IMG/VR virus record: IMGVR_UViG_3300041809_000597
Location: 1-44,280 of that record
Direction: 5' to 3' (one strand)
Source of the DNA: a virus
Length of the DNA: 44,280 bases
Part shown: positions 8,663-39,181 of the stretch, in pieces
Layout of the letters: each line of letters starts with the position of its first letter
How positions within the stretch are numbered: position 1 is the stretch's first letter
Program-made: the position numbers and the translations under genes
The notes under the pieces: model-generated
Database searches by the model: none
What the model was told of the DNA's origin: nothing
The model's input: only the letters and a program-made list of their open reading frames with translations

Positions 8663-9463
8663 ATGGCTCGGATTCTGACTCCAGAAGAAATCGTTGCTAG
8701 GGCACTCAGCTATAAACCAGCCGAGATATTCATAGGATATTCCGGCGGAAACGATAGCGCGGCAGTCGTTCACTGGATGATGAATAACGTTCCGGGGTGT
8801 AAGGTTCTTCACATCAATACCGGCATAGGCATAGAGCGGACGCGCCAGCATGTGCGCGAGACATGTGCCGCTTACGGCTGGGAACTTGTGGAGATCAGGG
8901 CCAAAGAGGATTGCGGCCAGGACTATGATACGATTGTCAAAAAGTACGGATTCCCCGGCCCCAACGGTCATCAGTTCATGTATCGGCGTCTTAAAGAGCG
9001 TTGTATCGAACACCTTCTACGCATTTACAAAACCAAGCGATCGGACAAGATTATGATCGCGACCGGTATTCGCCATGATGAATCCAAGAACCGCGCAGGA
9101 TATGCAGGGCGGGAGATCAATTTCAAGGGCGCGCAAATGTGGGTGAATCCGCTGTATTGGTGGACCGGCACCGACATGCGGCAGTATATCGATGCTGCAA
9201 AGATGCCCCGTAACCCCGTCAGTCAAATGCTTGGCATGAGCGGTGAATGCTTGTGCGGGGCGTATGCTCATAAGGGTGAAATGGCCTTGGTACGGCTTGT
9301 TTGTCCTGCCACAGCCGACCGCCTAAAGCGCCTTGAGGATGAAGTTAAGGCTTGCGGCCATGAGTGGGGATGGGAGGATAGGCCGCCCACTGTGGCTGAA
9401 CAGTTCATCGCCAAGAACCAGTATGCGATGCCATTTTGCAATGGCTGCGAGAAGGCAGCTTAG
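8663..9463 (+). CDS. PAPS-reductase-family PP-loop protein
   Basis: 266 residues. The PP-loop SGGNDS (residues 27-32, in IFIGYSGGNDSAAVV) binds the pyrophosphate of a nucleotide, and GIRHDESKNRAGY is the second family signature. The C-terminal half has SGECLCGAYAHKGEM and a final CNGC, cysteines that could carry sulfur or bind metal. The family includes cysteine-biosynthesis CysH and DndC of DNA phosphorothioation; stand-alone copies are frequent in phages with unproven roles (sulfur metabolism or nucleic-acid modification). No dnd partner genes are nearby. TGAGG upstream supports the start. Confidence 0.8.
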   Translation: MARILTPEEIVARALSYKPAEIFIGYSGGNDSAAVVHWMMNNVPGCKVLHINTGIGIERTRQHVRETCAAYGWELVEIRAKEDCGQDYDTIVKKYGFPGPNGHQFMYRRLKERCIEHLLRIYKTKRSDKIMIATGIRHDESKNRAGYAGREINFKGAQMWVNPLYWWTGTDMRQYIDAAKMPRNPVSQMLGMSGECLCGAYAHKGEMALVRLVCPATADRLKRLEDEVKACGHEWGWEDRPPTVAEQFIAKNQYAMPFCNGCEKAA

Positions 9464-26417: not shown

Positions 26418-28274
26418 ATGGAAAAGAAGTCGCGCAAGTGGCTACGGGCGTTTTCGCATTTTCTGGAAAACCTTAGAATTGATAGCAAGCACATTGCAGC
26501 CGAATCGGCGGAAGCCGGTATAAAGCTAGACTTGTGGGATTCGCAGCAACGGGTTCTCGATTGCCTTGGGAATGGCCTAGATGATGGAATCCACGTTTTC
26601 TATATCCTAAAATCTCGCCAGCTCGGCGTTTCCACGGTCACACTCGCAATCCTCCTTTTCTGGCTGGCCATACATCCCCGCATTTTCGGTGCTCTCGTTA
26701 TCGATAATGAAAAAAATAGCGAAAATTTCCGCAACATCCTTGTAAGATATATGGGGAGTTTTCCGGCCGGATTTTTTGGCAAGGCGTTCACGCTTGTTGC
26801 CAATAACTCGAAATTCCTAGAGTTCTCCAACGGCTCCCGCCTGGATTTCCTAGTTGCGGGTAAATCAAAAACGACATGGGGCGAATCTCGTGCCTACACA
26901 GTGGCGCTACTCTCTGAGGTATCAAAATACGGTCGAGCGGAAGGTCTAAATTCTTTCCTAGAAACCTTGTCTGAAACTAATCCAAACCGGCTCTATATGT
27001 TCGAGAGCACGGCGCATGGCCCGAACCATTGGAAAGCGATGTGGGAGGATGCCGGGATCGACGTTTACATGAAACGTCGAATTTTTGTCGGCTGGTGGTC
27101 TAGCGAGGTGAACACTATCGCAACGTCAGACCCGAGGTTTAAAATTTTTGGCGCTTCTGATCCAACGCCAGCGGAGAGGGAGAAAATACATGCCGTCAAA
27201 GAGGCATACGATTTTAAGGTTAATCGTAATCAGTTGGCCTGGTACAGATGGCGCGAGTCCAACAAGGCGACAACGCGGGAAATGCTGGATGAGTCCCAAC
27301 CTTGGACGGAAGACGATGCTTTTGTGCTCAGTGGCATGTCGTTCTTCCAGGTACGCAAGGTTACAGAGGACTTGGAGCGAGCGACAGAGGCAAACTCGCT
27401 ATGGTATCGCTATTATCTCGGCAATTCTTTCATGTCATCAAAATGCGAACAAATCCTAGATCAAAATCGCCGACCAGAGGTTGATCTGCGGGTTTGGGAG
27501 GAACCAGTACCGGGCGCGCGGTACGCCATCGGATTCGATCCGGCATATGGCAGAAATGACAATGCAGATAATAACGTTATCTGCGTTGGCAGGTGCTTCG
27601 CGGATAAATGGGTCCAGGTGGCAGAATACGCCAGCAACGCCCACACTGCCGGACAAGCGGCTTGGGTGATGGCCCACCTGGCGGGATGGTATCAGAACTG
27701 CATTGTAAACCTGGAGATCGGCGGGCCAGGCGACCAGGTTGTGATGGAACTGAACTCTGTACGACAACAGCTCCGATCAGAAGAATACCAAAAGGCGATG
27801 AATATAGCTCCAGGCGCGGTGAACTTCCTGGAAACAATGCGCTGGTATCTTTACCACCGACCCGATTCAATGGGCGCTGGATATGTCTATCACTGGCAAA
27901 CTACGGTAAGGACAAAGTTTCGGTTGATTGGCGGCTTTCGAGATAGCCACGTTACCGAACAAATACGGATAAATTCAGTTTTTTGCCTGCGCGAAATGTA
28001 CGATGTCACCCAGGAAGGCGCAGAGGTTAGCGCCCCATCAGGGTTGCACGACGACCGGGTATTTGCCGCCGCTTTGGCTGATGAGTGCTGGAAAAGCTGG
28101 ATTCGCCCGTCGATGATTGCCCAAGGTCTCACCTACGACCGGGTAATACTTTCCAATGAGGGCGTAAAATCGCGGGTATCGGATATCCTGAATGCCAGCG
28201 TGATTCGCGCTCTAAATGCACCGGAACAAGAACCGGCTGTAAATACCTTCCTACGAGAAAGAGGCTTATCCTAA
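26418..28274 (+). CDS. terL: Terminase large subunit
   Basis: 618 residues. N-terminal ATPase: Walker A-like KSRQLGVST (65-73), Walker B around ALLSEVSK (163-170), coupling motif ESTAHG (196-201). C-terminal RNaseH-like nuclease: IGFDPAYGRNDNADNN (first acidic residue D374), NLEIGG with E433, and HDDRVFA (544-546) as the last acidic cluster. It drives DNA into proheads and cuts the concatemer. GAGG lies rather far upstream (13 bases) of the chosen ATG. No separate small terminase was recognised. Confidence 0.95.
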   Translation: MEKKSRKWLRAFSHFLENLRIDSKHIAAESAEAGIKLDLWDSQQRVLDCLGNGLDDGIHVFYILKSRQLGVSTVTLAILLFWLAIHPRIFGALVIDNEKNSENFRNILVRYMGSFPAGFFGKAFTLVANNSKFLEFSNGSRLDFLVAGKSKTTWGESRAYTVALLSEVSKYGRAEGLNSFLETLSETNPNRLYMFESTAHGPNHWKAMWEDAGIDVYMKRRIFVGWWSSEVNTIATSDPRFKIFGASDPTPAEREKIHAVKEAYDFKVNRNQLAWYRWRESNKATTREMLDESQPWTEDDAFVLSGMSFFQVRKVTEDLERATEANSLWYRYYLGNSFMSSKCEQILDQNRRPEVDLRVWEEPVPGARYAIGFDPAYGRNDNADNNVICVGRCFADKWVQVAEYASNAHTAGQAAWVMAHLAGWYQNCIVNLEIGGPGDQVVMELNSVRQQLRSEEYQKAMNIAPGAVNFLETMRWYLYHRPDSMGAGYVYHWQTTVRTKFRLIGGFRDSHVTEQIRINSVFCLREMYDVTQEGAEVSAPSGLHDDRVFAAALADECWKSWIRPSMIAQGLTYDRVILSNEGVKSRVSDILNASVIRALNAPEQEPAVNTFLRERGLS

Positions 28275-28609: not shown

Positions 28610-29134
28610 ATGGAATTTTGGATCAAGAATAGGTGCCAGAGCTGTTCCAATGTCTACAAATTCAAGGCGTCGAGCGATTTGGACGATGCCTCGGATGTGG
28701 AGGACAAACCATGCCCAAAATGCGCAGGGGTTCAGAAAACGCGGGGTATGGATGTATCAGCGGGCAAGGCCCCATCAGTCGGTGGATCGAACATGGTTCG
28801 CGCGATGGATGCTGCCGCAGATATCGTAATGGATAATTACCAATTGACGGACCTAAGCTCGGATGGTCGGCCAGGCGCGGTGATGGCTCCAAAACTTCCG
28901 CCGCACCAACAGCAGCGCGTCGATAATTTTTTCAGCCCAAATAAAAATAGTATCATCGGGGCGAAGGCAAAGCAGATGGCAGCGGCAGCAGCCCAAGGCA
29001 AGGGCCTAGGGGCGTTCGCACCGCCTAGAGACCCGAGGACACCAGACCCGATTGCACTGGTCCAGGCGACGCGCCAGCGGCCTCCTGTACACCTATTAAA
29101 TCCGCGCGATAGAAACGGGAATATAATCTCATGA
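28610..29134 (+). CDS. Zinc-ribbon protein upstream of portal
   Basis: 174 residues. CQSC near residue 9 and CPKC near residue 35 form a zinc ribbon at the N-terminus. The remainder is Ala/Pro/Gln-rich and apparently disordered (KAKQMAAAAAQGKGLGAFAP). Overlaps the portal start by four bases. Function unknown; a packaging-associated role is inferred from place only. Confidence 0.65.
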   Translation: MEFWIKNRCQSCSNVYKFKASSDLDDASDVEDKPCPKCAGVQKTRGMDVSAGKAPSVGGSNMVRAMDAAADIVMDNYQLTDLSSDGRPGAVMAPKLPPHQQQRVDNFFSPNKNSIIGAKAKQMAAAAAQGKGLGAFAPPRDPRTPDPIALVQATRQRPPVHLLNPRDRNGNIIS

Positions 29135-30975
29135 TAATCCCTGAAAGAGACATTGAAGATTGGGCAGCAGAAATATGTCGCCAATGTACGCCGGATAATC
29201 AGGACAGAACCCAGCGCGGCGCGTTTTTTCGGAATCTGTATCTATCAGCAGATGAAAACGGCGACACCGCGATCTTCAACAAAACATTCGACTCAATCGA
29301 AGACCTGACATCCTATTTGTGCTCGTCAACTGATCTCAGGTATCTCGTAAATTTTCCTGGCGGCGGATCGCCCCTCCAGCGTGCGCAGGCAGAAGCTATC
29401 GCCCATGAGCTGTTGGACCAATCGCGCAATACCGAACTTGACACGCTGTTTGAGGAAGCCACGCGCTGGTCGCTCATCAAAGGCATAACATTTGTAAAAA
29501 TGCTATGGAGTGTAAACGGGCTAGAACCGCATTTGATATTTCCAGAATTTATGGGGGTCATGCGCGCGGATTTGAACAGCCTAGATCAACAAGAGGCATT
29601 CGTTCATTCGACGTATCTTACAAGAGACCAATTTCGGCTACTGATAAAAGACCATCCAGACGCGAGAAAAATATACAAGCGTGCAATTCAATTTTCGGCG
29701 CAAACGAGATCGGCGGACGGGCCGGACCAAGCCGCGATGCTCAAGCAGGTTATTGTCGGCGGATTTCAGCCGTACCAGGGCGTCGGCGGTGTTGGCAGCG
29801 CGAACCCGCAAACGACAAACGGAATGGTTCAATGGCTCGCTGGCCCCTATCCTAGTTTTGATCCAAAGGTAATTACTGAGTTAGTTCGCGTTGACGAGCT
29901 ATGGGTAAGGGATGACGGCAGGATGGATGATGAAGGTCGTCGAGAATGGTCAACCTTCCAGGTTGTTGGAAACATAATGCTGTTTGGAAAAGAACAGCGC
30001 ATGAACATTTTCGCCGATGCGATTGACCCATATAATCGGTTTCCAATACGCCAGGCATTCGATGCAAATCCCCTAGCATTTAAACACCCATTCGTTGAAT
30101 TTTGCCCAAATAGGCTACAAAATTATTTTTGGGGAAGATCAGAGATTGCAAACCTTGCCCTATTACAGAGGCAGTTAAACAAGAGAATAAATGGGATAAA
30201 CGGGCTTTTGCGGTTACAGGAAAATCCTCCAATCGCCTTTATGGGCGGTACGATGATGGACCAAACCAAAAAATCAAAGCTCACAAAGCCGGGAGGATGG
30301 ATGCACGACCCAGACCCAACGGCAAAACCTCCGCTGGTTCTAGCGCCAACGCTGCCCCCTGATCTATGGCAAAGCCTGGTTCAGACAGAGAGGCTATTCG
30401 ACGTTATGACGGGAATGACGCCAACGCTACAGGGTATGGCATCGCCATCTGTTCGATCTCATGGTCAGACCGGCCAGCTCACAGCAAACGCAACACCAAG
30501 ATTCAAGACAAAATCTGTTCGCATAGAGCGTTCTATCCAGACTTGCGCTGGGTTGCTGCTCGATCTCCTAAAGGCAAAATCAAAGCATTTGATAACGGCA
30601 TGGGTTCCGCCAGGAGCCTCTCAATCCCCAGAATTGCTAGGGAGGTTGATTGATCCGGCGGTGCAGCCTCCAGCACCAGGTATGAAGGCATATCAATTTT
30701 ACATGCACGAGGTTCCTGACAATGTTCGCGTCATGGTTGATGCTCATAGTTCATCCCCAGCATTTGGCGACGAGTCAGAGCAAAAGGCGGTACTGCTCAA
30801 GAAGGCAAACGCCATGTCGAGTGAACAGTTTATCGAACAGATCAATCCGCCAAACGCTGATGTCGTCATTGCCGAGGTTAAAACTGCCGAGATCATGGCA
30901 GCGGCACAACAGGCAAAACAGGCAGCCGCCGTTGCCGCTCAAGGTGGACAGCCTGGAAAGCCTGGCAGAAAATGA
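29131..30975 (+). CDS. Portal protein
   Basis: 614 residues, coupled to the preceding gene. Size, position after terminase and internal pattern agree with portal proteins of podovirus-like phages: helical N-terminal stem region, WSLIKGITFVKMLWSVNGLE, a long central beta region, FCPNRLQNYFWGRSEIANLA (the conserved P.R..YY.G.S wing motif) followed by LLQRQLNKRINGINGLLRLQ, and a Gln/Ala-rich C-terminus (AAAQQAKQAAAVAAQGGQ). It forms the dodecameric DNA gate. Confidence 0.9.
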   Translation: MIIPERDIEDWAAEICRQCTPDNQDRTQRGAFFRNLYLSADENGDTAIFNKTFDSIEDLTSYLCSSTDLRYLVNFPGGGSPLQRAQAEAIAHELLDQSRNTELDTLFEEATRWSLIKGITFVKMLWSVNGLEPHLIFPEFMGVMRADLNSLDQQEAFVHSTYLTRDQFRLLIKDHPDARKIYKRAIQFSAQTRSADGPDQAAMLKQVIVGGFQPYQGVGGVGSANPQTTNGMVQWLAGPYPSFDPKVITELVRVDELWVRDDGRMDDEGRREWSTFQVVGNIMLFGKEQRMNIFADAIDPYNRFPIRQAFDANPLAFKHPFVEFCPNRLQNYFWGRSEIANLALLQRQLNKRINGINGLLRLQENPPIAFMGGTMMDQTKKSKLTKPGGWMHDPDPTAKPPLVLAPTLPPDLWQSLVQTERLFDVMTGMTPTLQGMASPSVRSHGQTGQLTANATPRFKTKSVRIERSIQTCAGLLLDLLKAKSKHLITAWVPPGASQSPELLGRLIDPAVQPPAPGMKAYQFYMHEVPDNVRVMVDAHSSSPAFGDESEQKAVLLKKANAMSSEQFIEQINPPNADVVIAEVKTAEIMAAAQQAKQAAAVAAQGGQPGKPGRK

Positions 30976-31220
30976 CTCAGTATGATTTGAAAAATATAGG
31001 CGTCCTATTGTATGGGCCGCTCTGGCAAGCCCAGCTTGCGCGAAATATCGGGGTATCGGACAGAACAGTAAGGCGCTGGTACAAAGGAACGAACAGAATA
31101 AAGGCGTCATACGAAGAAAAAATAAAACTCATAATGCTACGTCGCGCTAATTCGATGAAGGCATTTTTATCCAATTTGGAATCATCAAAAATTGAAAAAA
31201 ATCCGGTGGTTAGGACATAA
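30972..31220 (+). CDS. Small helix-turn-helix protein in virion module
   Basis: 82 residues, ATGA-coupled to the portal gene. IGVLLYGPLWQAQLARNIGV, then SDRTVRRWYKGTNRI, is a clean helix-turn-helix (about residues 8-38); the tail is basic. The same fold type appears at 18564. A DNA-binding protein co-translated with portal could regulate the late genes or act in packaging. I do not know a named family. Confidence 0.7.
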   Translation: MTQYDLKNIGVLLYGPLWQAQLARNIGVSDRTVRRWYKGTNRIKASYEEKIKLIMLRRANSMKAFLSNLESSKIEKNPVVRT

Positions 31221-31242: not shown

Positions 31243-31323
31243 TTGACGTTTTAGGAAAATAATAAATACCTATGGCCACGCCAATTTTGGGCGGCACAAA
31301 GGGACCGGGAGAACCGGACTCCC
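31243..31323 (+). promoter_or_regulatory. Structured gap with possible promoter
   Basis: TTGACG (31243-31248) has no good -10 at standard spacing (nearest TACCTA, 18 bases). The following leader has a GGGA-CCGG / CCGG-AC-TCCC hairpin at about 31300-31324. Either a weak late promoter or a processed leader for the two micro-genes. Confidence 0.3.
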
Positions 31324-31344
31324 CTCAACATAGAGGAGTGTGAT

Positions 31345-31380
31345 ATGGCTCGTCATAAAGGTCGCGGCAAGCGCAAATAA
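31345..31380 (+). CDS. 11-residue basic micropeptide (copy 1)
   Basis: MARHKGRGKRK. GAGGAG lies six bases before ATG, a strong site. Seven of eleven residues are basic. A second micro-gene 55 bases downstream encodes the near-identical MRHKGRSKRK with its own site. Conservation at protein level with different codons (for example CAT/CAC, CGC/CGT, GGC/TCC) argues for selection on the peptide. It could bind DNA or RNA, act as a leader peptide, or be an internal virion peptide. None of this is established. Confidence 0.6.
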   Translation: MARHKGRGKRK

Positions 31381-31430
31381 ATCCTTCGCATCGGACACTG
31401 CGAAAATTTCTAAACCATTTTGAAGGATTT
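31379..31430 (+). promoter_or_regulatory. Alternative hairpins between the two micro-genes
   Basis: AAATCCTTC (31379-31387) can pair perfectly with GAAGGATTT (31422-31430), which contains the ribosome-binding site of the second micro-gene. TTCGCA (31385-31390) can instead pair with TGCGAA (31399-31404). The two share bases 31385-31387 and exclude each other, like an attenuator switch set by ribosomes finishing the first micro-gene. Confidence 0.55.
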
Positions 31431-31435
31431 GTATC

Positions 31436-31468
31436 ATGCGTCACAAAGGTCGTTCCAAGCGCAAGTAA
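31436..31468 (+). CDS. 10-residue basic micropeptide (copy 2)
   Basis: MRHKGRSKRK, paralogous to the micro-gene at 31345. AAGGA stands eight bases before ATG. Followed by a terminator hairpin eight bases after the stop. Too short for homology inference beyond the pair itself. Confidence 0.6.
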   Translation: MRHKGRSKRK

Positions 31469-31475
31469 GCGTGTC

Positions 31476-31508
31476 GGCGCGAGGTTGAACAGCCTCGCGC
31501 CTCCGTTT
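31476..31508 (+). terminator. Terminator after micro-genes
   Basis: GGCGCGAGG (31476-31484), 8-base loop, CCTCGCGCC (31493-31501), then TCCGTTTT. The stem is strong, the T-run short; partial read-through into the scaffold/capsid genes would be needed, or a promoter downstream. Confidence 0.65.
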
Positions 31509-31522
31509 TGCGGGACAACATC

Positions 31523-32068
31523 ATGTCACAATTTGTCGGTCAAATCCCCCCTCAATTGGCTGCTCTAGCAGGTGGCGGTGCGCCTGGCGGCCCGCCTGGC
31601 GGCCCACCTGGTGCTGCACCCGGCGCTGCACCCGGCGCTCCCCCCGGTGCCGGTGGGCCGCAGCTCCCGCCGAGCCTGCAAGCTGGCCGACCTGGTGCTG
31701 GCCCGATGGCCGTTCCGCAGGGAAACCCCGGCAATGCACTAGCGGCGGTCTCAAAGCTCAAGACGGCTATAACGCTGCTCCAGGAAAGCCTGCCAGCAAT
31801 CCCCCTTGGGTCTGATGTCCATACGGATGTCCTTAAGGCGGTCGGCATGTTGGCGAAGCACGCTGATAGCCACGAGTCGAATGACCAACAGCAAATCACG
31901 CAATTGCAGGCATTGATTCAAAAACTGGCCCAGCAACAGCCTAACGCGGCGCTTGCGCGGCTCAGTCAGATGAACCCGAACACCCCGCCAGCATTACCGA
32001 CGCCACCGCCGCCTCAAGGCGATTCAGGGGGTCCATCCGGCCCCCCTGCCCCGCCAATGGCGGCATAG
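31523..32068 (+). CDS. Pro/Gly-repeat structural-region protein
   Basis: 181 residues. ATG 31523 starts MSQFVGQIPPQLAALAGGGA. Residues 20-47 repeat a four-residue unit of xxPG type (GPPG, AAPG, APPG). A helical middle section (NALAAVSKLKTAITLLQESL, VGMLAKHADSHESNDQQQIT) and Pro-rich tail follow. Probably a virion or assembly protein in view of its place before the scaffold; no family recognised. Confidence 0.7.
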   Translation: MSQFVGQIPPQLAALAGGGAPGGPPGGPPGAAPGAAPGAPPGAGGPQLPPSLQAGRPGAGPMAVPQGNPGNALAAVSKLKTAITLLQESLPAIPLGSDVHTDVLKAVGMLAKHADSHESNDQQQITQLQALIQKLAQQQPNAALARLSQMNPNTPPALPTPPPPQGDSGGPSGPPAPPMAA

Positions 32069-32080
32069 AGGAGAAAATCG

Positions 32081-32278
32081 ATGTCAAAAGGGCCAGGTCC
32101 ATACGTCAATACTGTTCCGGCAGAGGGAAAAGACCCGATTATGCGGACGGTCCCATTCGACTATTCCGGCATTGGCGCGTCGCCAGCCGGGATGCCAGCC
32201 GGTACGCGCGGCGCGGGCATGGGTTTGCAGCACTATGGCACAACGACCGATGGCAATCCCGGTAAGGGAGCGCCCTAA
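32081..32278 (+). CDS. Small structural-region protein
   Basis: 65 residues, GAGGAG upstream. Gly/Pro-rich, ordered elements few (MSKGPGPYVNTVPAEGKDPI). Its stop overlaps the scaffold start (TAATG). Perhaps a minor capsid component; unassigned. Confidence 0.65.
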   Translation: MSKGPGPYVNTVPAEGKDPIMRTVPFDYSGIGASPAGMPAGTRGAGMGLQHYGTTTDGNPGKGAP

Positions 32279-32880
32279 TGTCGAATACGCCAGAGACGGT
32301 TGAAATTTCGTCGTCCGATCTTGCAGCATATAAGAGGGCAATGGCGCTGCTCGATAAGCTGACAGGCGATAAAGATACCGGATTGAACATCCAACGGAAG
32401 TTGAAAGAGATCGACCCGACTCTTAACCTTCCAGGGATCGACCTTGGCGATGCAGTTGTTAAGCCGCTTAAGGAAGAACTCACATCGACTCAGGAAAAGC
32501 TAAATAATCTCATCGCCGAGCGCGAGGCAGAGCGAAAAGCCGCTGAGGATTCCAGGGTTGAAAACGGTCTGCGGGATTCAATCGGTCGCGCCCAGACGAA
32601 ATACAAGCTCACCCCCGAAACGACTGATAAACTGGTAAAGTTTATGCAGGAAAAGGGGGTTGCAGATGCCGAGGTTGCCGCTCCAGCCTTCCTGGAAACG
32701 CTGCCGAAACCCCCGGCACCGATCAAGCCCAACTCCTATACACCAATGACGGCAAATTTATTCGGAACGGGCGATGATAGAGGGTCCGATGAAAATATCG
32801 CGGCTCTGCATAAAGACCCGGTGAAGTGGTTTGACGCCGAGGTGGCCAAGATAATGAACGAGGCAGACCAAGCAGCCTAA
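32278..32880 (+). CDS. Probable scaffolding protein
   Basis: 200 residues just before the capsid gene. Highly charged and helical (LKEELTSTQEKLNNLIAERE, RAQTKYKLTPETTDKLVKFM), with a short ordered C-terminal helix (KDPVKWFDAEVAKIMNEADQ) such as scaffolds use to bind the shell. Position, size and composition suit a scaffold that is removed before DNA filling; there is no protease motif. Confidence 0.75.
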   Translation: MSNTPETVEISSSDLAAYKRAMALLDKLTGDKDTGLNIQRKLKEIDPTLNLPGIDLGDAVVKPLKEELTSTQEKLNNLIAEREAERKAAEDSRVENGLRDSIGRAQTKYKLTPETTDKLVKFMQEKGVADAEVAAPAFLETLPKPPAPIKPNSYTPMTANLFGTGDDRGSDENIAALHKDPVKWFDAEVAKIMNEADQAA

Positions 32881-32895
32881 ACAGGAGATTAACCC

Positions 32896-33960
32896 GTGTC
32901 ACAAACCTTCTTTACGAGCGGCGTTTCTGGCGGGTTAATGCCAGGTGGCGCACTTGGCCAACAGCTTACATACATCACAAATCGCGCGGTCATCCCGTCG
33001 CTTTTTGTTCAGATTTACCAGTCCCATCCGCTGTTATCCCTTCTTTTGAGCAATGCTCAGAGTGCCAGGGGTGGCGCGTCGATGATTACCGTCCCAACGC
33101 AGGGTTCATCCTTCACGACCTTCAATTGGGGTTCGTTCGCTGGCGACTTCCCGATGCCAGAAGATCAGGCAGCTATCACCGATGCCAGCTTTAACTTGAA
33201 GATTGGTATGGTCCCTATCGGATTCTTCAATCTTGAGGCAATTGTTCAGTCTTCGGACGTGATTATCCCAAAACTTCGGGCTGTTACGGCTGACGCAGCG
33301 GTTGTCATCAAACAGGCCCTTGCCAGCTACATGTTCTCGAATAACTCCAATAATCTAAATGCCCTAGATTCGCTCTACATGGCATATGATAATGGAACAA
33401 ATGTCGCCTCATATGGCGGTATCAGCAAGACAAATGCCTTCTGGCAGGGCCAGTATTACCCGAACCAAGGCGGTCTAGGTAACATTGCCTCCCGCGTTGG
33501 CATGGCGACCATGCTAACCCGCGTTGCGACGGGTGCCGGTGGCGAGGATTGCGACTTTGCCGTGATGAATCCCGCCGATTGGGCAACGCTAATGAGCGAC
33601 TTCATGGGGTTCGAGCAATACCAGACCAACCCGCGCAGCCGGTACGGTAAGGGCGACACGGTAAACTCCGGTTTCCGCGCGATCCAGGTACTAAATACCC
33701 CGATTTTCCCCGATCCGTGGTGCCCTCGCGGCGAAATGTACATGATAAATTCGCGCTATCTTGCGATGTATATCAGCGAGGCGGCACCGTTCATCTTTAC
33801 TGGATTTGAATCGATGATCCCGCTCGGGCAGCTTGCATCAATCGGCGTGCTTCTGACCGCCCTCGATCTTGTGTGCTCAAAACCGTCCTCCGGCGCGCAT
33901 ATCACGGGCCTAGCCTCTCCGGCCTGGCCGAACGTACCGGGACCGCCTGCCGTCCTCTAA
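32896..33960 (+). CDS. Major capsid protein
   Basis: 354 residues from GTG with AGGAG eight bases before it. Follows the scaffold. TYITNRAVIPSLFVQIYQSH near the start (N-arm and long helix), then strands (MITVPTQGSSFTTFNWGSFA), central helices and FAVMNPADWATLMSDFMGFE with IQVLNTPIFPDPWC toward the end, consistent with an HK97-type fold. The call rests mainly on genomic position and overall pattern; no signature motif exists for the fold. Confidence 0.8.
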   Translation: MSQTFFTSGVSGGLMPGGALGQQLTYITNRAVIPSLFVQIYQSHPLLSLLLSNAQSARGGASMITVPTQGSSFTTFNWGSFAGDFPMPEDQAAITDASFNLKIGMVPIGFFNLEAIVQSSDVIIPKLRAVTADAAVVIKQALASYMFSNNSNNLNALDSLYMAYDNGTNVASYGGISKTNAFWQGQYYPNQGGLGNIASRVGMATMLTRVATGAGGEDCDFAVMNPADWATLMSDFMGFEQYQTNPRSRYGKGDTVNSGFRAIQVLNTPIFPDPWCPRGEMYMINSRYLAMYISEAAPFIFTGFESMIPLGQLASIGVLLTALDLVCSKPSSGAHITGLASPAWPNVPGPPAVL

Positions 33961-33995: not shown

Positions 33996-35072
33996 ATGCC
34001 AATTCGTTTCGGTGGTCCTGGGGTAACAAACACCCTTGCCGATCTTACCAGCAATCAATTCGCCTTGCAGGCTGGGGGTGTTTGGCTTCCTCCCGCCAAC
34101 GGCTATTGGGCATCCCTCGGTCGTTATTCGCAGCTCCAGGAATACGACCCGATTATGACGATCTGGAAGCCGATCTCCGGTGTCAAACAGAACGTCTTTT
34201 TCTCGGCTGATGGCGTCAATCAGCGCATTGCGAATACCTCGGGCTGCGCGGTCGGCGCTCTCCTGACCGCCGCTGGATCGGGATATACCTCTGCGCCCAC
34301 CGTAACAGCATCCGCTGGCAATTCTGTCTGGCTTGCCCTAGTTGGCGGCGCGGTGAATACGACTGTCACGGTCGCATATGGCGGCACCAACTATACCCAG
34401 CCCCCCAATGTGTTCTTCTCCGCTCCCCCGGCTCCTGGCGTCCCTGCAACGGGATATGCCACGATCTCGGGTGGCTTAGTTACCAGCGTTACCATCACCA
34501 ACCAGGGGGCCGGATATACCTTCCCCCCAACCGTCTCGTTCTTCAACGATCCGCGCGATTCCACGGGCGCGAATGCCTCGGCTGTTGCCACGCTGACCGG
34601 CGCTGGCACGGTTACGGCTGTCCTCTGCCTCAACCACGGAAACCCCCTCACCTCTGTTCCAACCCTGACCTTCACAGGCGGCGGCGGTACGAGCGCGGCG
34701 GCAACGGCGATTATGAATTTCGCGATTACTGGCTATGCGGTGACGACTGCGGGCGCTGGATACACTGCCGCTGCTGGTAGCGTCACGGTATCGGCTACCC
34801 CAGTGCCGACTGCTGGAACGGCGGCTTACACCAATCCTGGTTCTCAGATTGAGCTAGTCGCCATGCGCCAGGCGGTCATTTCTGCCCCCGTAAGCAGTGC
34901 TGGCGCGATCACCGCAACGGGCGAATATGTCGTTGACGGTGGCTCCTATGAGGCAATTCCAACGGCTGGTTCCATCAGCATTATCGGGAATGGTCTTATT
35001 ACGACCGCTGCCGTTCTCACCCTTACCGTTGGCGGCATCGTTGACAACGAGAATTATATCTACCCGAACTGA
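33996..35072 (+). CDS. Virion protein with GYTSxPT-type repeats (possible decoration)
   Basis: 358 residues, AGGAG nine bases before ATG. Residues 85-255 contain four to five copies of a glycine-rich beta repeat (LTAAGSGYTSAPTVTASAGN, ITNQGAGYTFPPTVSFF, VTTAGAGYTAAAGSVTV). The N-terminal 75 residues and C-terminal 80 residues are non-repetitive. Similar repeats occur in the 35957 and 38579 products. The place just after the capsid gene suggests a head-decoration or head-completion protein; terminator follows. Confidence 0.75.
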   Translation: MPIRFGGPGVTNTLADLTSNQFALQAGGVWLPPANGYWASLGRYSQLQEYDPIMTIWKPISGVKQNVFFSADGVNQRIANTSGCAVGALLTAAGSGYTSAPTVTASAGNSVWLALVGGAVNTTVTVAYGGTNYTQPPNVFFSAPPAPGVPATGYATISGGLVTSVTITNQGAGYTFPPTVSFFNDPRDSTGANASAVATLTGAGTVTAVLCLNHGNPLTSVPTLTFTGGGGTSAAATAIMNFAITGYAVTTAGAGYTAAAGSVTVSATPVPTAGTAAYTNPGSQIELVAMRQAVISAPVSSAGAITATGEYVVDGGSYEAIPTAGSISIIGNGLITTAAVLTLTVGGIVDNENYIYPN

Positions 35073-35956: not shown

Positions 35957-38254
35957 ATGGCCAGACGCAGCTCGTCGGATGATCTTGGGATACCGGCAGG
36001 CTTACAACTATACACGCCATTTCCGTTTGCAGGTCTAAATCTGTCATCTAGTCGCCCAGCAATTAGGGATTCAGAATTTTACGCTATCGAAAATTTTGTA
36101 AGAGTTGGTGATGGATTTTTAAGAACCTTATGGGATGTAGGACCGCCAATATATACGGCGGCTACGAACCTAACAATTATTTCGGCATTTTTTTACAATA
36201 TCGCCGTAACACAATATGTTGTTGTTTTCCTGAGCGATGGCACTGCGTATCAGGTGAACACATCGACAAATGCTATAACAACGATATCATCCGTTGTCGG
36301 TACTTTCTATAATGGAGGTAATATTCCTGGGTGCATCCAGTGGGGATCGCAATATCTTTTAATTGGAAACAACAATAACCAAAATGCCTATTGGGTGTGG
36401 GATGGGTCGATCCTTTACGCGGCTGGTGGGGTATCCCCCGAAATAGTCATAACCAATGGGGGTTCTGGATATTCAAGCGCCCCTACTGTGACAGCCTATG
36501 GTGGAGAGGGAACTGGGGCAACATTCCAGGCAGTCATTCAAGACGGCTCTGTTGTTGCTGTGAATGTCGTAACTCCCGGAACGGGATATCAGCCGATTGA
36601 TTATGTCCAGTTGGCATTTTCTGGAGGAGGATCATCAAATTCTGCAATCATAGAGACAACCCTTGGACCTAGAGGAATTGAGGCAATAATCGTTACGGCT
36701 GGTGGAACTGGATACACTTCGCCGCCAACAGTCTATATCATAGATGGCGGCGGAACTGGGGCAACAGCAACCGCAGTTTTGACGGGAACATCAGTAACAT
36801 CAGTAACGGTGAATACTCCAGGAAGCGGATACACATCGACGCCGACAATTGTTTTTTCTGGGGGCGGGGGTTCAGGAGCGTCTGCCTATGCGTCAGTTCC
36901 CGAAAGCGGAGTTGCGACCATATTTATTGTCACTGGAGGAAGCGGGTACGGGGAAACTCCAACATTAACCATAGTTGGTGGCGGCGGAACTGGGGCAACA
37001 GCAACCGCGACAGTGACAAATGGCGTTATAACGGCAGTTACCTTGACGAATGGTGGAAATAATAATTATACGAGTCCACCATCAGTTATTGTTGAAACAG
37101 CGATAAATCAATCTGCATCTGCGACCGTAGCTCTCATGCCGTATGGAGTAAGTGGAACGACGCTTGAGGCGTTTCAGTCTCGCGTATGGATAGCTGATCC
37201 ATTCACACCTCCGACAAATGCCCCATCACAGAATAATAGCAATAGGTTTCAGGTTTCTGCTCCAGGATCAATTTCAGATTTTGCAACATCAGATGGCGGG
37301 CTAATTTTTACATCGACAGACAGATTTCTGCGCCAGCAATACGTGGCAATGCGGCAGTCAAATGGATACCTTTATCCAATTGGAGATTCTTCATGTTCGA
37401 TCATAAGCGGCGTATCGACTAGCGGTAATCCACCAACAACGACTTTCAGTTATCAGAACACTGACCCTCAAATTGGAACCCCTTGGCGCGATTCGTGCCA
37501 GGATTTTGGAAGAACTATCCTTTTTGCCAACCAACTCGGAGTTTACGGGCTGTACGGCGGATCGGTAACAAAGGTAAGCCAGACTTTGGATGCGCTTTTT
37601 TCCCTAGCAAAGTTTCCGCCAACTCCAGGTGCATTAACGCCAACATCGGCGGTCGCAAATATCTATGGCGGGAAATACTACCTACTGCTGCTCACTGTTT
37701 TAGATCAGGAAACGCTGGTTGCTACAAATAAGATGCTCGTTTGGGATGAATCCGAGTGGTTCATGGCGACCCAATCGAAAAACCTCATGTTTATATGCAC
37801 GCAAGAGATAAATTCAAATATCACGGCGTGGGGTTCGGATGGGGCAACTCTATTTCCCCTGTTTAGGGCTGAAAGTTCCAGCCTAATAAAGACGCTTTCA
37901 ACAAAATTGTATGGTGGAAACCAACCGTTTCTAGCAAAACAGGTGTTTTCCGTCCTGGTTCAAGCAAGAAATTTTCAGAATTTTGGGTATCCTGTGACTG
38001 TATCTCTGAATTTAGACACGGATGCAAATGAATTTCCTGTTGGACCGAAGTCGTTTACCTTTTCTGTCCTGGGAAACTACAATCTTTCCTGGCCAATGGC
38101 CATGACGGGAGATACAAATGCAGCAGGGATATACCTAGGCGTGACTTTGACCACGACGCAGGCCGATATGGTGCTAAGTTACCTGGCGATCACCTATACG
38201 CCTGGCCCATTCCAAGTTGGAAGTATCAATCTGGTTGTTCCAGGACAATACTAA
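35957..38254 (+). CDS. Tail hub/stopper-like protein with inserted repeats
   Basis: 765 residues. N-terminal (residues 1-155: GIPAGLQLYTPFPFAGLNLS, SEFYAIENFVRVGDGFLRTL) and C-terminal parts (from about 400: QSRVWIADPFTPP, PIGDSSCSIISGVSTSGNPP, WRDSCQDFGRTILFANQLGV) resemble beta-propeller-like tail proteins of P22/T7-type podoviruses. Between them, about residues 157-395, sit five or so GSGYTSTPTIVFSGGGGSG-type repeats that look like an inserted module. The start has only a weak site. Probably forms the tail nozzle or head plug. Confidence 0.7.
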   Translation: MARRSSSDDLGIPAGLQLYTPFPFAGLNLSSSRPAIRDSEFYAIENFVRVGDGFLRTLWDVGPPIYTAATNLTIISAFFYNIAVTQYVVVFLSDGTAYQVNTSTNAITTISSVVGTFYNGGNIPGCIQWGSQYLLIGNNNNQNAYWVWDGSILYAAGGVSPEIVITNGGSGYSSAPTVTAYGGEGTGATFQAVIQDGSVVAVNVVTPGTGYQPIDYVQLAFSGGGSSNSAIIETTLGPRGIEAIIVTAGGTGYTSPPTVYIIDGGGTGATATAVLTGTSVTSVTVNTPGSGYTSTPTIVFSGGGGSGASAYASVPESGVATIFIVTGGSGYGETPTLTIVGGGGTGATATATVTNGVITAVTLTNGGNNNYTSPPSVIVETAINQSASATVALMPYGVSGTTLEAFQSRVWIADPFTPPTNAPSQNNSNRFQVSAPGSISDFATSDGGLIFTSTDRFLRQQYVAMRQSNGYLYPIGDSSCSIISGVSTSGNPPTTTFSYQNTDPQIGTPWRDSCQDFGRTILFANQLGVYGLYGGSVTKVSQTLDALFSLAKFPPTPGALTPTSAVANIYGGKYYLLLLTVLDQETLVATNKMLVWDESEWFMATQSKNLMFICTQEINSNITAWGSDGATLFPLFRAESSSLIKTLSTKLYGGNQPFLAKQVFSVLVQARNFQNFGYPVTVSLNLDTDANEFPVGPKSFTFSVLGNYNLSWPMAMTGDTNAAGIYLGVTLTTTQADMVLSYLAITYTPGPFQVGSINLVVPGQY

Positions 38255-38264
38255 GGAGAATCCA

Positions 38265-38579
38265 ATGGCAAATCTACCGAAAACATCAAGAGGAACGCTA
38301 GACTTCGATGCGATGATTGAGGCCAGCCAGCCAGCCCTGCCGCCAAATGGCTGCGCAACCCATAACCCGATGGGATTGGTTGTAGAATCCCCCGCAGGGA
38401 CGTTATACACCGCTGAGGGAACGATGTATGGGACCGCAGGCGGGGATGGTCGGCAATGGAACCATGATAGCCGAGACGGCGATAAGTGGAACCATAATTG
38501 TATGCCAGTTCGGCCAGAACCCGACATTTACGGCTTGGTCCCATATATCCTGCCGATCTCTCGGAAGCTAAAAAAATAA
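38265..38579 (+). CDS. Small virion-region protein
   Basis: 104 residues, AAGGAG six bases before ATG. Contains GRQWNHDSRDGDKWNHNCMP, two WNH elements, and ends in a basic PISRKLKK. No family recognised. Overlaps the next start (TAATG). Confidence 0.65.
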   Translation: MANLPKTSRGTLDFDAMIEASQPALPPNGCATHNPMGLVVESPAGTLYTAEGTMYGTAGGDGRQWNHDSRDGDKWNHNCMPVRPEPDIYGLVPYILPISRKLKK

Positions 38580-39181
38580 TGGGTACTCAAAACCTATGGA
38601 ATACCCCGAGAGATAAGAATAGCCTCGATCTATGGGGCCTGGCAAACCGCGTCGATCACGACGATATATCTAAGGCAATATCCCTAAAAAGCAGTATGAT
38701 TGCTGGCCTGACGATAACGAATAGCGGAACCGGATATACATCAGCTCCGACGATCACGATTGGCCCGCCAGATTTGCCTGGTGGGACGCAAGCAACGGCG
38801 GATTTTACCATCGTTGGCAGTTCTCTGACCCTAAACCTCACTAATCCAGGACTAGGGTACTCTCGCGCTCCAATAGTAACCGTTACTGGTGGTGGCGGAA
38901 CTGGATTAACGGTTGCGGCAACGGTGAATTACATCGTTATCCAGACATTCCAACTCGATCCAATACCGCAGAACGATATGGGAACGTGGAATACGAACCA
39001 TCAATTACTCCATCAGCTCATGCTCAACGCAACCGCTCAACAAAGCAGCGATCTCGGGGATATCCAAACTGGATATTTAGACTTTAGCGATCCAGAAGGC
39101 ATGGAAGAATACATTTACTTTCATGCACAGGACCATATTTCAGCAAGGAATGCCTTAATCGGATTTTTACCGGGCGTATAA
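38579..39181 (+). CDS. Virion protein with two GYTSAPT-type repeats
   Basis: 200 residues. An N-terminal helical part (DLWGLANRVDHDDISKAISL) is followed by two copies of the repeat (LTITNSGTGYTSAPTITIGP, LTNPGLGYSRAPIVTVTGGG), then a C-terminal domain (YLDFSDPEGMEEYIYFHAQD). The repeats tie it to the 33996 and 35957 products. Tail or tail-fibre attachment role possible. Confidence 0.7.
   Translation: MGTQNLWNTPRDKNSLDLWGLANRVDHDDISKAISLKSSMIAGLTITNSGTGYTSAPTITIGPPDLPGGTQATADFTIVGSSLTLNLTNPGLGYSRAPIVTVTGGGGTGLTVAATVNYIVIQTFQLDPIPQNDMGTWNTNHQLLHQLMLNATAQQSSDLGDIQTGYLDFSDPEGMEEYIYFHAQDHISARNALIGFLPGV

Follow-up and report, generated by a model that had tools for sequence, protein, structure and literature searches.

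A predicted family of conserved micro-genes for short basic peptides in the head operon of a tailed phage lineage

Described small basic gene products and the locus in question

Among described systems, the J/VP8 proteins of the Microviridae (phiX174 J, SpV4 VP8) come closest to the genes reported here: they are very small, highly basic products of the virion gene block, and their C-terminal part anchors to the capsid (PMC11281519). The locus in question lies in a 44,280-base IMG/VR virus record (IMGVR_UViG_3300041809_000597), called here the window, to which all coordinates refer unless another locus is named. The gap between its portal and major capsid protein genes holds two open reading frames (ORFs) of 11 and 10 codons, micro-gene 1 and micro-gene 2, which comparison with relatives identifies, virtually beyond doubt, as real, conserved protein genes missed by annotators. 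Judged from the sequences at hand, they belong to a family of conserved micro-genes in one tailed-phage lineage, defined by its portal and its phrog_9953-type capsid protein. The products resemble J/VP8 in being small and basic (net charge of +4 to +11 in 9-21 residues) and in their origin from the virion block, here the portal-capsid gap. They differ in being nearly all basic, often encoded in tandem, and found in tailed double-stranded DNA (dsDNA) phages; their ends are basic, hydrophobic residues are nearly absent, the capsid-anchoring C-terminus is lacking, and no homology is claimed. The single-stranded DNA (ssDNA) genome and jelly-roll capsid of the Microviridae are not features of this locus either, since the terminase, portal and phrog_9953 head genes identify the window phage, as far as gene content can tell, as a tailed dsDNA phage and not as an ssDNA microvirus.

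The baculovirus protein P6.9 and the adenovirus core peptide mu are likewise short Arg-rich polycations made with capsid proteins and conserved at the level of composition. These belong to eukaryotic viruses, are larger or proteolytically made, and are proven in virions. Arginine-rich-motif peptides of the lambda N type share the short Arg/Lys-rich segment and the proximity of hairpins, but lambda N is a protein of ~100 residues with a defined boxB ligand, and no RNA ligand is common to the micro-gene clades. Amino-acid attenuator leader peptides share a short ORF with a Shine-Dalgarno (SD) site, a biased composition and a hairpin after it. By their sequence features, however, the micro-genes fail what defines attenuators: mostly no U-tract follows, no alternative pairing with the ORF is apparent, the Arg codons are common ones, and two or three units occur. 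To our knowledge, no equivalent encoded polycation exists in tailed phages, and literature searches, of incomplete coverage, found no tailed-phage counterpart; the family may have been listed earlier as an unnamed small-gene cluster by Fremin et al. 2022, reportedly a large survey of small phage genes. Ten-codon genes fall below the usual length cut-offs of gene finders, yet these are retained lineage-wide and over deep divergence, often in tandem. They would provide a rare and well-supported case of purifying selection acting on ultra-short protein genes and, at 9-21 residues, would rank with the shortest conserved phage protein genes.

Conservation and coding of the micro-genes

Micro-gene 1 (31345..31380, plus strand; stop codon 31378-31380) encodes MARHKGRGKRK, and micro-gene 2 (31436..31468, plus strand; stop codon 31466-31468) encodes MRHKGRSKRK. 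Each has its own SD site on the same strand: AGAGGAG (31332..31338), 6 nt 5' of the ATG and almost unchanged across the leader alignment A2, and AAGGA (31423..31427), read from the sequence 8 nt 5' of the ATG. Relatives were fetched by portal or capsid homology, with single-sequence and profile capsid searches, yielding 66 unique loci whose upstream DNA is long enough; the evidence is sequence, mostly of metagenomic contigs, and unique loci only partly stand for independent lineages. The portal search gives 12 loci, and those that span the gap all hold two tandem basic micro-ORFs at the same place (three in L011), micro-gene 1 having counterparts in every one. Examples of such pairs are MAKRKMHRGKRK with MARRKGHRGKRK in L004 and L006, MAIRMRRGKRK with MARHKGRKRK in L003, and MKRKGHRKGRK with MARRKGHRKGRK in L010. 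Along the aligned codons, micro-gene 2 and its L003 counterpart MARHKGRKRK show 3 synonymous and 0 replacement differences. The three micro-ORFs of L011 (1886-2150), where relatives have two, are clearly unlike in sequence (MARRKHARRGRK, MARRVHVRSHTRRR, MRKSVRVSVRRRRR).

All 66 relatives have a basic micro-ORF between their portal and capsid genes, 64 being detected by the automatic filter and 2 by inspection (further upstream in L044, starting with GTG in L047). There are usually one or two copies, and up to three per genome; most branches of the capsid-fetched set have one detected copy (e.g. MKRRHRKHKRK, MARRHKGRGKRK, MIRFRRGRKHKR), these counts being minimum values, as ORFs with unusual starts escape the filter. 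Two groundwater phages in GenBank, MW202825 and MW202753 (~27% identity in the portal, ~36% in the capsid protein), keep the tandem pair, as MYKKHKRSRKTRR with MARKARKTRKGRK and MRKAYKKTRKTRR with MARAKRKGRKARK. The two records leave all four without annotation and carry instead opposite-strand hypothetical coding sequences in the gap (L048 7749-8009 and L049 4740-5038), which are probably spurious, a warning that standard annotation misses such genes.

The micro-ORF alone also leads back to the same genomic position. A DNA pattern consisting of SD, ATG, an Ala codon, two basic codons, a gap, Lys-Arg-Lys and TAA, run over all IMG/VR contigs, returned 44 matches, 43 of them in-frame basic peptides and 1 out of frame. 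A homologous portal gene lies directly upstream in 41 of the 43, and the remaining 2 are truncated, the longer loci of their contigs (L179, L183) having the portal gene in that position. Where the contig is long enough, the capsid gene usually follows ~1.4-2.9 kb downstream; in the L133 branch a scaffold-like protein gene is found at that distance, and the contigs stop ahead of it or shortly past it, so that no capsid gene was seen there.

More distant test loci were collected afterwards with the capsid protein of L123 and the portal of L154 as queries, and 17 of them lie outside the pattern-scan set. Basic micro-ORFs occupy the gap in 16 of these (five near-identical to one another; L172 and L180 recognised with a relaxed filter only), the sole exception being L191 (28% capsid identity), where they are absent. 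Some members of this branch are longer, at 20-32 residues, and keep the basic C-terminus, e.g. RRGGKRK. Beside peptides of the MARR...KRK type, L172, L179, L180, L182, L159, L130, L134 and L162 have companion basic peptides of ~17-32 residues ending in GRY, KRY or RRY, which may form a second class whose C-terminus is aromatic. The cultured phages BUCT555, ppBjS10J-1 and Ruegeria 45A6, remotely similar in the capsid protein, were inspected for a micro-ORF and lack it; together with L191, this indicates that the micro-gene is lineage-wide and not universal. Stenotrophomonas phage BUCT555 does encode a 52-residue basic protein without Pfam match upstream of its capsid gene (L167 3583-3741); considered as a counterpart, it showed no link to the micro-genes, and it is a possible functional analogue. 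Bacterial genomes gave a single capsid match, on a short contig of a Geobacteraceae metagenome-assembled genome (L122), too weak to name a host; this contig also carries basic micro-ORFs.

The 102 distinct ORF sequences translate into 91 distinct peptides of 9-21 residues with a mean net charge of +7.4. Arg (38%) and Lys (25%) make up ~63% of the residues, followed by Gly (9%), Ala (6.5%) and His (6.5%), while Asp, Glu and bulky hydrophobic residues are almost absent. KRK, GRK or RRK forms the C-terminus of 60/91 peptides, MRR and similar ends also occurring. Residue orders are rearranged in many of them, so that, in protamine-like fashion, composition is kept rather than order. Judged from these alignments, selection maintains charge, length and the basic C-terminus rather than the exact sequence, and the peptides are probably disordered. 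Arg is mostly encoded by CGC/CGT and Lys by AAG, AGA, AGG and CGA being rare.

A strict filter (9-18 residues, ATG start, SD, at least 60% K/R/H, no D/E) applied to 3.2 kb of sequence 5' of the capsid gene retrieves 53 ORFs across the 66 loci, at least one in 45 of them. Run on the opposite strand of these loci, on their downstream 3.2 kb, or on ten dinucleotide-shuffled versions of each, it retrieves 0 in every case. Pairs guided by capsid similarity give pS 0.50, pN 0.21 and a dN/dS of ~0.29, somewhat lowered by aligning the peptides as protein first; in pairs chosen by peptide similarity, the ORFs are 79% identical versus ~40% in the 36-nt flanks. Change has thus fallen on third positions and flanks and has spared the frame, start, SD and amino-acid charge, the behavior of protein genes. 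The gap is full of hairpins, and one might regard the micro-ORFs as chance, non-coding ORFs within structured intergenic RNA; this is hardly credible, and is effectively refuted by the empty controls, the synonymous excess, the lack of structure within the ORF itself and the peptide-level conservation despite diverged flanks. These results bear out in part an earlier account of the window made from its letters only (the sequence-only reading), which had proposed tandem genes conserved at the peptide level in the virion operon. Both frames and their ribosome-binding sites are present, as it stated, and the shared RHKGR-KRK has three of the synonymous codon differences it described (CAT/CAC, CGC/CGT, AAA/AAG). 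Its view that chance is an unlikely origin agrees with the filter counts, obtained on loci not chosen for micro-ORFs, and the dN/dS comparison it proposed shows more synonymous than replacement change. Relatives that keep the flanking genes and have lost both peptides, which would speak against it, were also looked for: at least one peptide is found in 66/66 close and 16/17 distant loci.

Possible functions of the basic peptides

The micro-genes always sit in the head operon, which suggests a part in head assembly or packaging. That charge, length and the basic C-terminus are retained, and exact residue order is not, fits a disordered polycation that binds nucleic acid or acidic proteins non-specifically. 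We therefore favour, with a probability of about 0.5, a protamine-like or J-like polycation that binds nucleic acid during head assembly or packaging. The peptide would be made together with the portal, scaffold and capsid proteins, would bind nucleic acid non-specifically, and would neutralise DNA phosphate charge, or bridge DNA or the acidic scaffold to the shell. The level of translation, the binding to nucleic acid and the action in or on the head are what we infer here from position and composition. Several points weigh against this proposal. Tailed dsDNA phages normally neutralise their DNA with polyamines and divalent cations, so that a basic peptide is not obviously needed. A 44-kb genome has ~88,600 phosphates, and simple arithmetic puts the need for a peptide of charge +8 at ~1,100 copies if 10% are to be neutralised, although fewer would do for a bridging role in assembly. 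The peptides contain no hydrophobic capsid-anchoring segment, and the remotest relatives with a similar capsid (BUCT555, ppBjS10J-1, Ruegeria 45A6, L170, L191) do without micro-genes. The stronger proposition, that a tailed dsDNA phage lineage uses encoded 9-21-residue polycations as obligate head-assembly or DNA-packaging factors, a phage protamine, is accordingly tentative and has somewhat less than even chances. It raises a testable question, namely whether some tailed phages encode their own DNA-packing polycation beyond host polyamines and metal ions.

The main rival is a regulatory role, by RNA binding or ribosome pausing. It concerns the RNA around the micro-ORFs, whose fold stability was expressed for 60-nt regions as z against shuffles. 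The 60 nt 3' of the stop codons have a mean z of -1.88, 58% of them falling below -1.5 versus 7% of random 60-mers; the 60 nt upstream are more stable than shuffles to a lesser degree (36%), and the micro-ORFs themselves are unstructured (mean z +0.26). The downstream stems are unrelated in sequence between loci, and a run of five T accompanies just 17/90 regions, so most of these hairpins are not intrinsic terminators; terminator-like hairpins with U-tracts are found in L032, L045 and L154. In the window, the hairpin TTCGCA/TGCGAA (31385..31404, plus strand), seen in the sequence directly 3' of the micro-gene 1 stop and thus between the two units, lies in a 60-nt region no more stable than shuffles (z -0.1), and unrelated stems (CATTCAG/CTGAATG, TACAGC/GCTGTA) replace it in relatives. 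An 11-bp hairpin with a weak T-run (31476..31501, plus strand; z -3.1), followed only by TCCGTTTT, lies 3' of the micro-gene 2 stop, and equivalents follow the last micro-ORF in most relatives. In L006, one post-stop hairpin is missing though the peptide is kept. Ahead of micro-gene 1 stands a bulged leader hairpin, GGGA-CCGG-loop-CCGG-ac-TCCC (31301..31323, plus strand; z -2.2 for the 60-nt upstream window), conserved among 10 relatives. A small hairpin, CCTC/GAGG (31323..31336, plus strand), can sequester the micro-gene 1 SD and is compensated in L004 (CTTC/GAAG); in L010 its arms read CCAC/GTGG, but that sequence takes a different minimum-energy fold. Overall, the leader receives weak covariation support from RNAalifold (covariation term +1.49), it is conserved in the clade of the window only, other clades lacking it, and Rfam returned only chance-level matches, far below gathering scores. 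Further 5', a weak promoter-like TTGAC(g) box (31243..31248, plus strand) has GAC invariant and TTGAC in 9/10 sequences of A2; since a scan found no consensus -10 near it, a promoter there is putative.

Arginine-rich-motif peptides bind RNA hairpins to regulate translation or termination, and the micro-peptides could tune the head operon in this way by binding their own leader or the post-unit hairpins. The leader and SD-hiding hairpins of the window clade, the compensatory change in L004 and the enrichment of post-stop hairpins agree with such a regulator. It is nevertheless unlikely, because the leader is not common to other clades and covaries weakly, the post-stop hairpins are unrelated and can be missing where the peptide is kept, and residue order is loosely conserved, unlike that of specific RNA-binding peptides. 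Polybasic nascent chains slow ribosomes, and a cis-acting translated leader would work through such pausing, attenuating transcription or stabilising the scaffold/capsid mRNA, the free peptide having no job. Short ORFs with SDs do precede hairpins, a few of them terminator-like, but the scarcity of five-T runs, the unstructured ORF with therefore no apparent alternative pairing, the common Arg and Lys codons and the frequent occurrence of two or three units with an SD apiece make this explanation slightly less likely still, and a sensor of Arg/Lys supply ahead of capsid genes makes little sense. The attenuator that the sequence-only reading had offered as an alternative is thereby weakened, though less so in a version based on pausing or RNA binding. 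Phages also carry many small takeover proteins, and polycations can bind ribosomes or nucleoids; a host-directed peptide (toxin, antimicrobial, or ribosome or nucleoid takeover factor) placed in the late operon by happenstance is very improbable, given a portal-capsid position strictly conserved across deep divergence, the earliness and variability usual for takeover genes, and the near absence of hydrophobic residues, which excludes a membrane peptide. More specific candidates were rejected, namely an intrinsic-terminator attenuator (few U-tracts), a rare-codon stall (common codons) and a membrane toxin (no hydrophobic stretch).

Gene order around the micro-genes in the window

The head operon runs from the terminase large subunit gene (26418-28274) through the portal gene (29131..30975), a helix-turn-helix (HTH) gene (30972..31220), the two micro-genes, a Pro/Gly-rich gene (31523..32068, ATG at 31523), a 65-residue ORF and a scaffold-like gene (32278..32880) to the major capsid protein gene (32896..33960), the features from portal to capsid for which coordinates are given being on the plus strand. 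The portal, the upstream landmark, matches phrog_156 (E 5e-4) and is homologous to the annotated portals of MW202825 and MW202753; the capsid protein, the downstream landmark, matches phrog_9953 (E 1.7e-18). The 82-residue HTH protein has PHROG and sub-threshold Pfam HTH matches. Neither the Pro/Gly-rich protein nor the acidic 200-residue scaffold-like protein (net charge -8), whose gene precedes that of the capsid, has a family match. The placement between portal and scaffold genes given by the sequence-only reading is thus right as to the head operon and too simple in detail, as the HTH, Pro/Gly-rich and 65-residue ORFs intervene. A nucleotide search of the region against phage records returned no match. 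Downstream of the capsid gene, the genes at 33996-35072, 35957-38254 and 38498-39181 all have matches in one group of large virion/tail PHROG families (phrog_701, 460 and 5342), which suggests that these virion proteins share a repeated surface domain; the first two have no Pfam match. At 8663-9463, the window carries an auxiliary metabolic gene resembling phosphoadenosine phosphosulfate reductase (phrog_424, E 1.6e-33).
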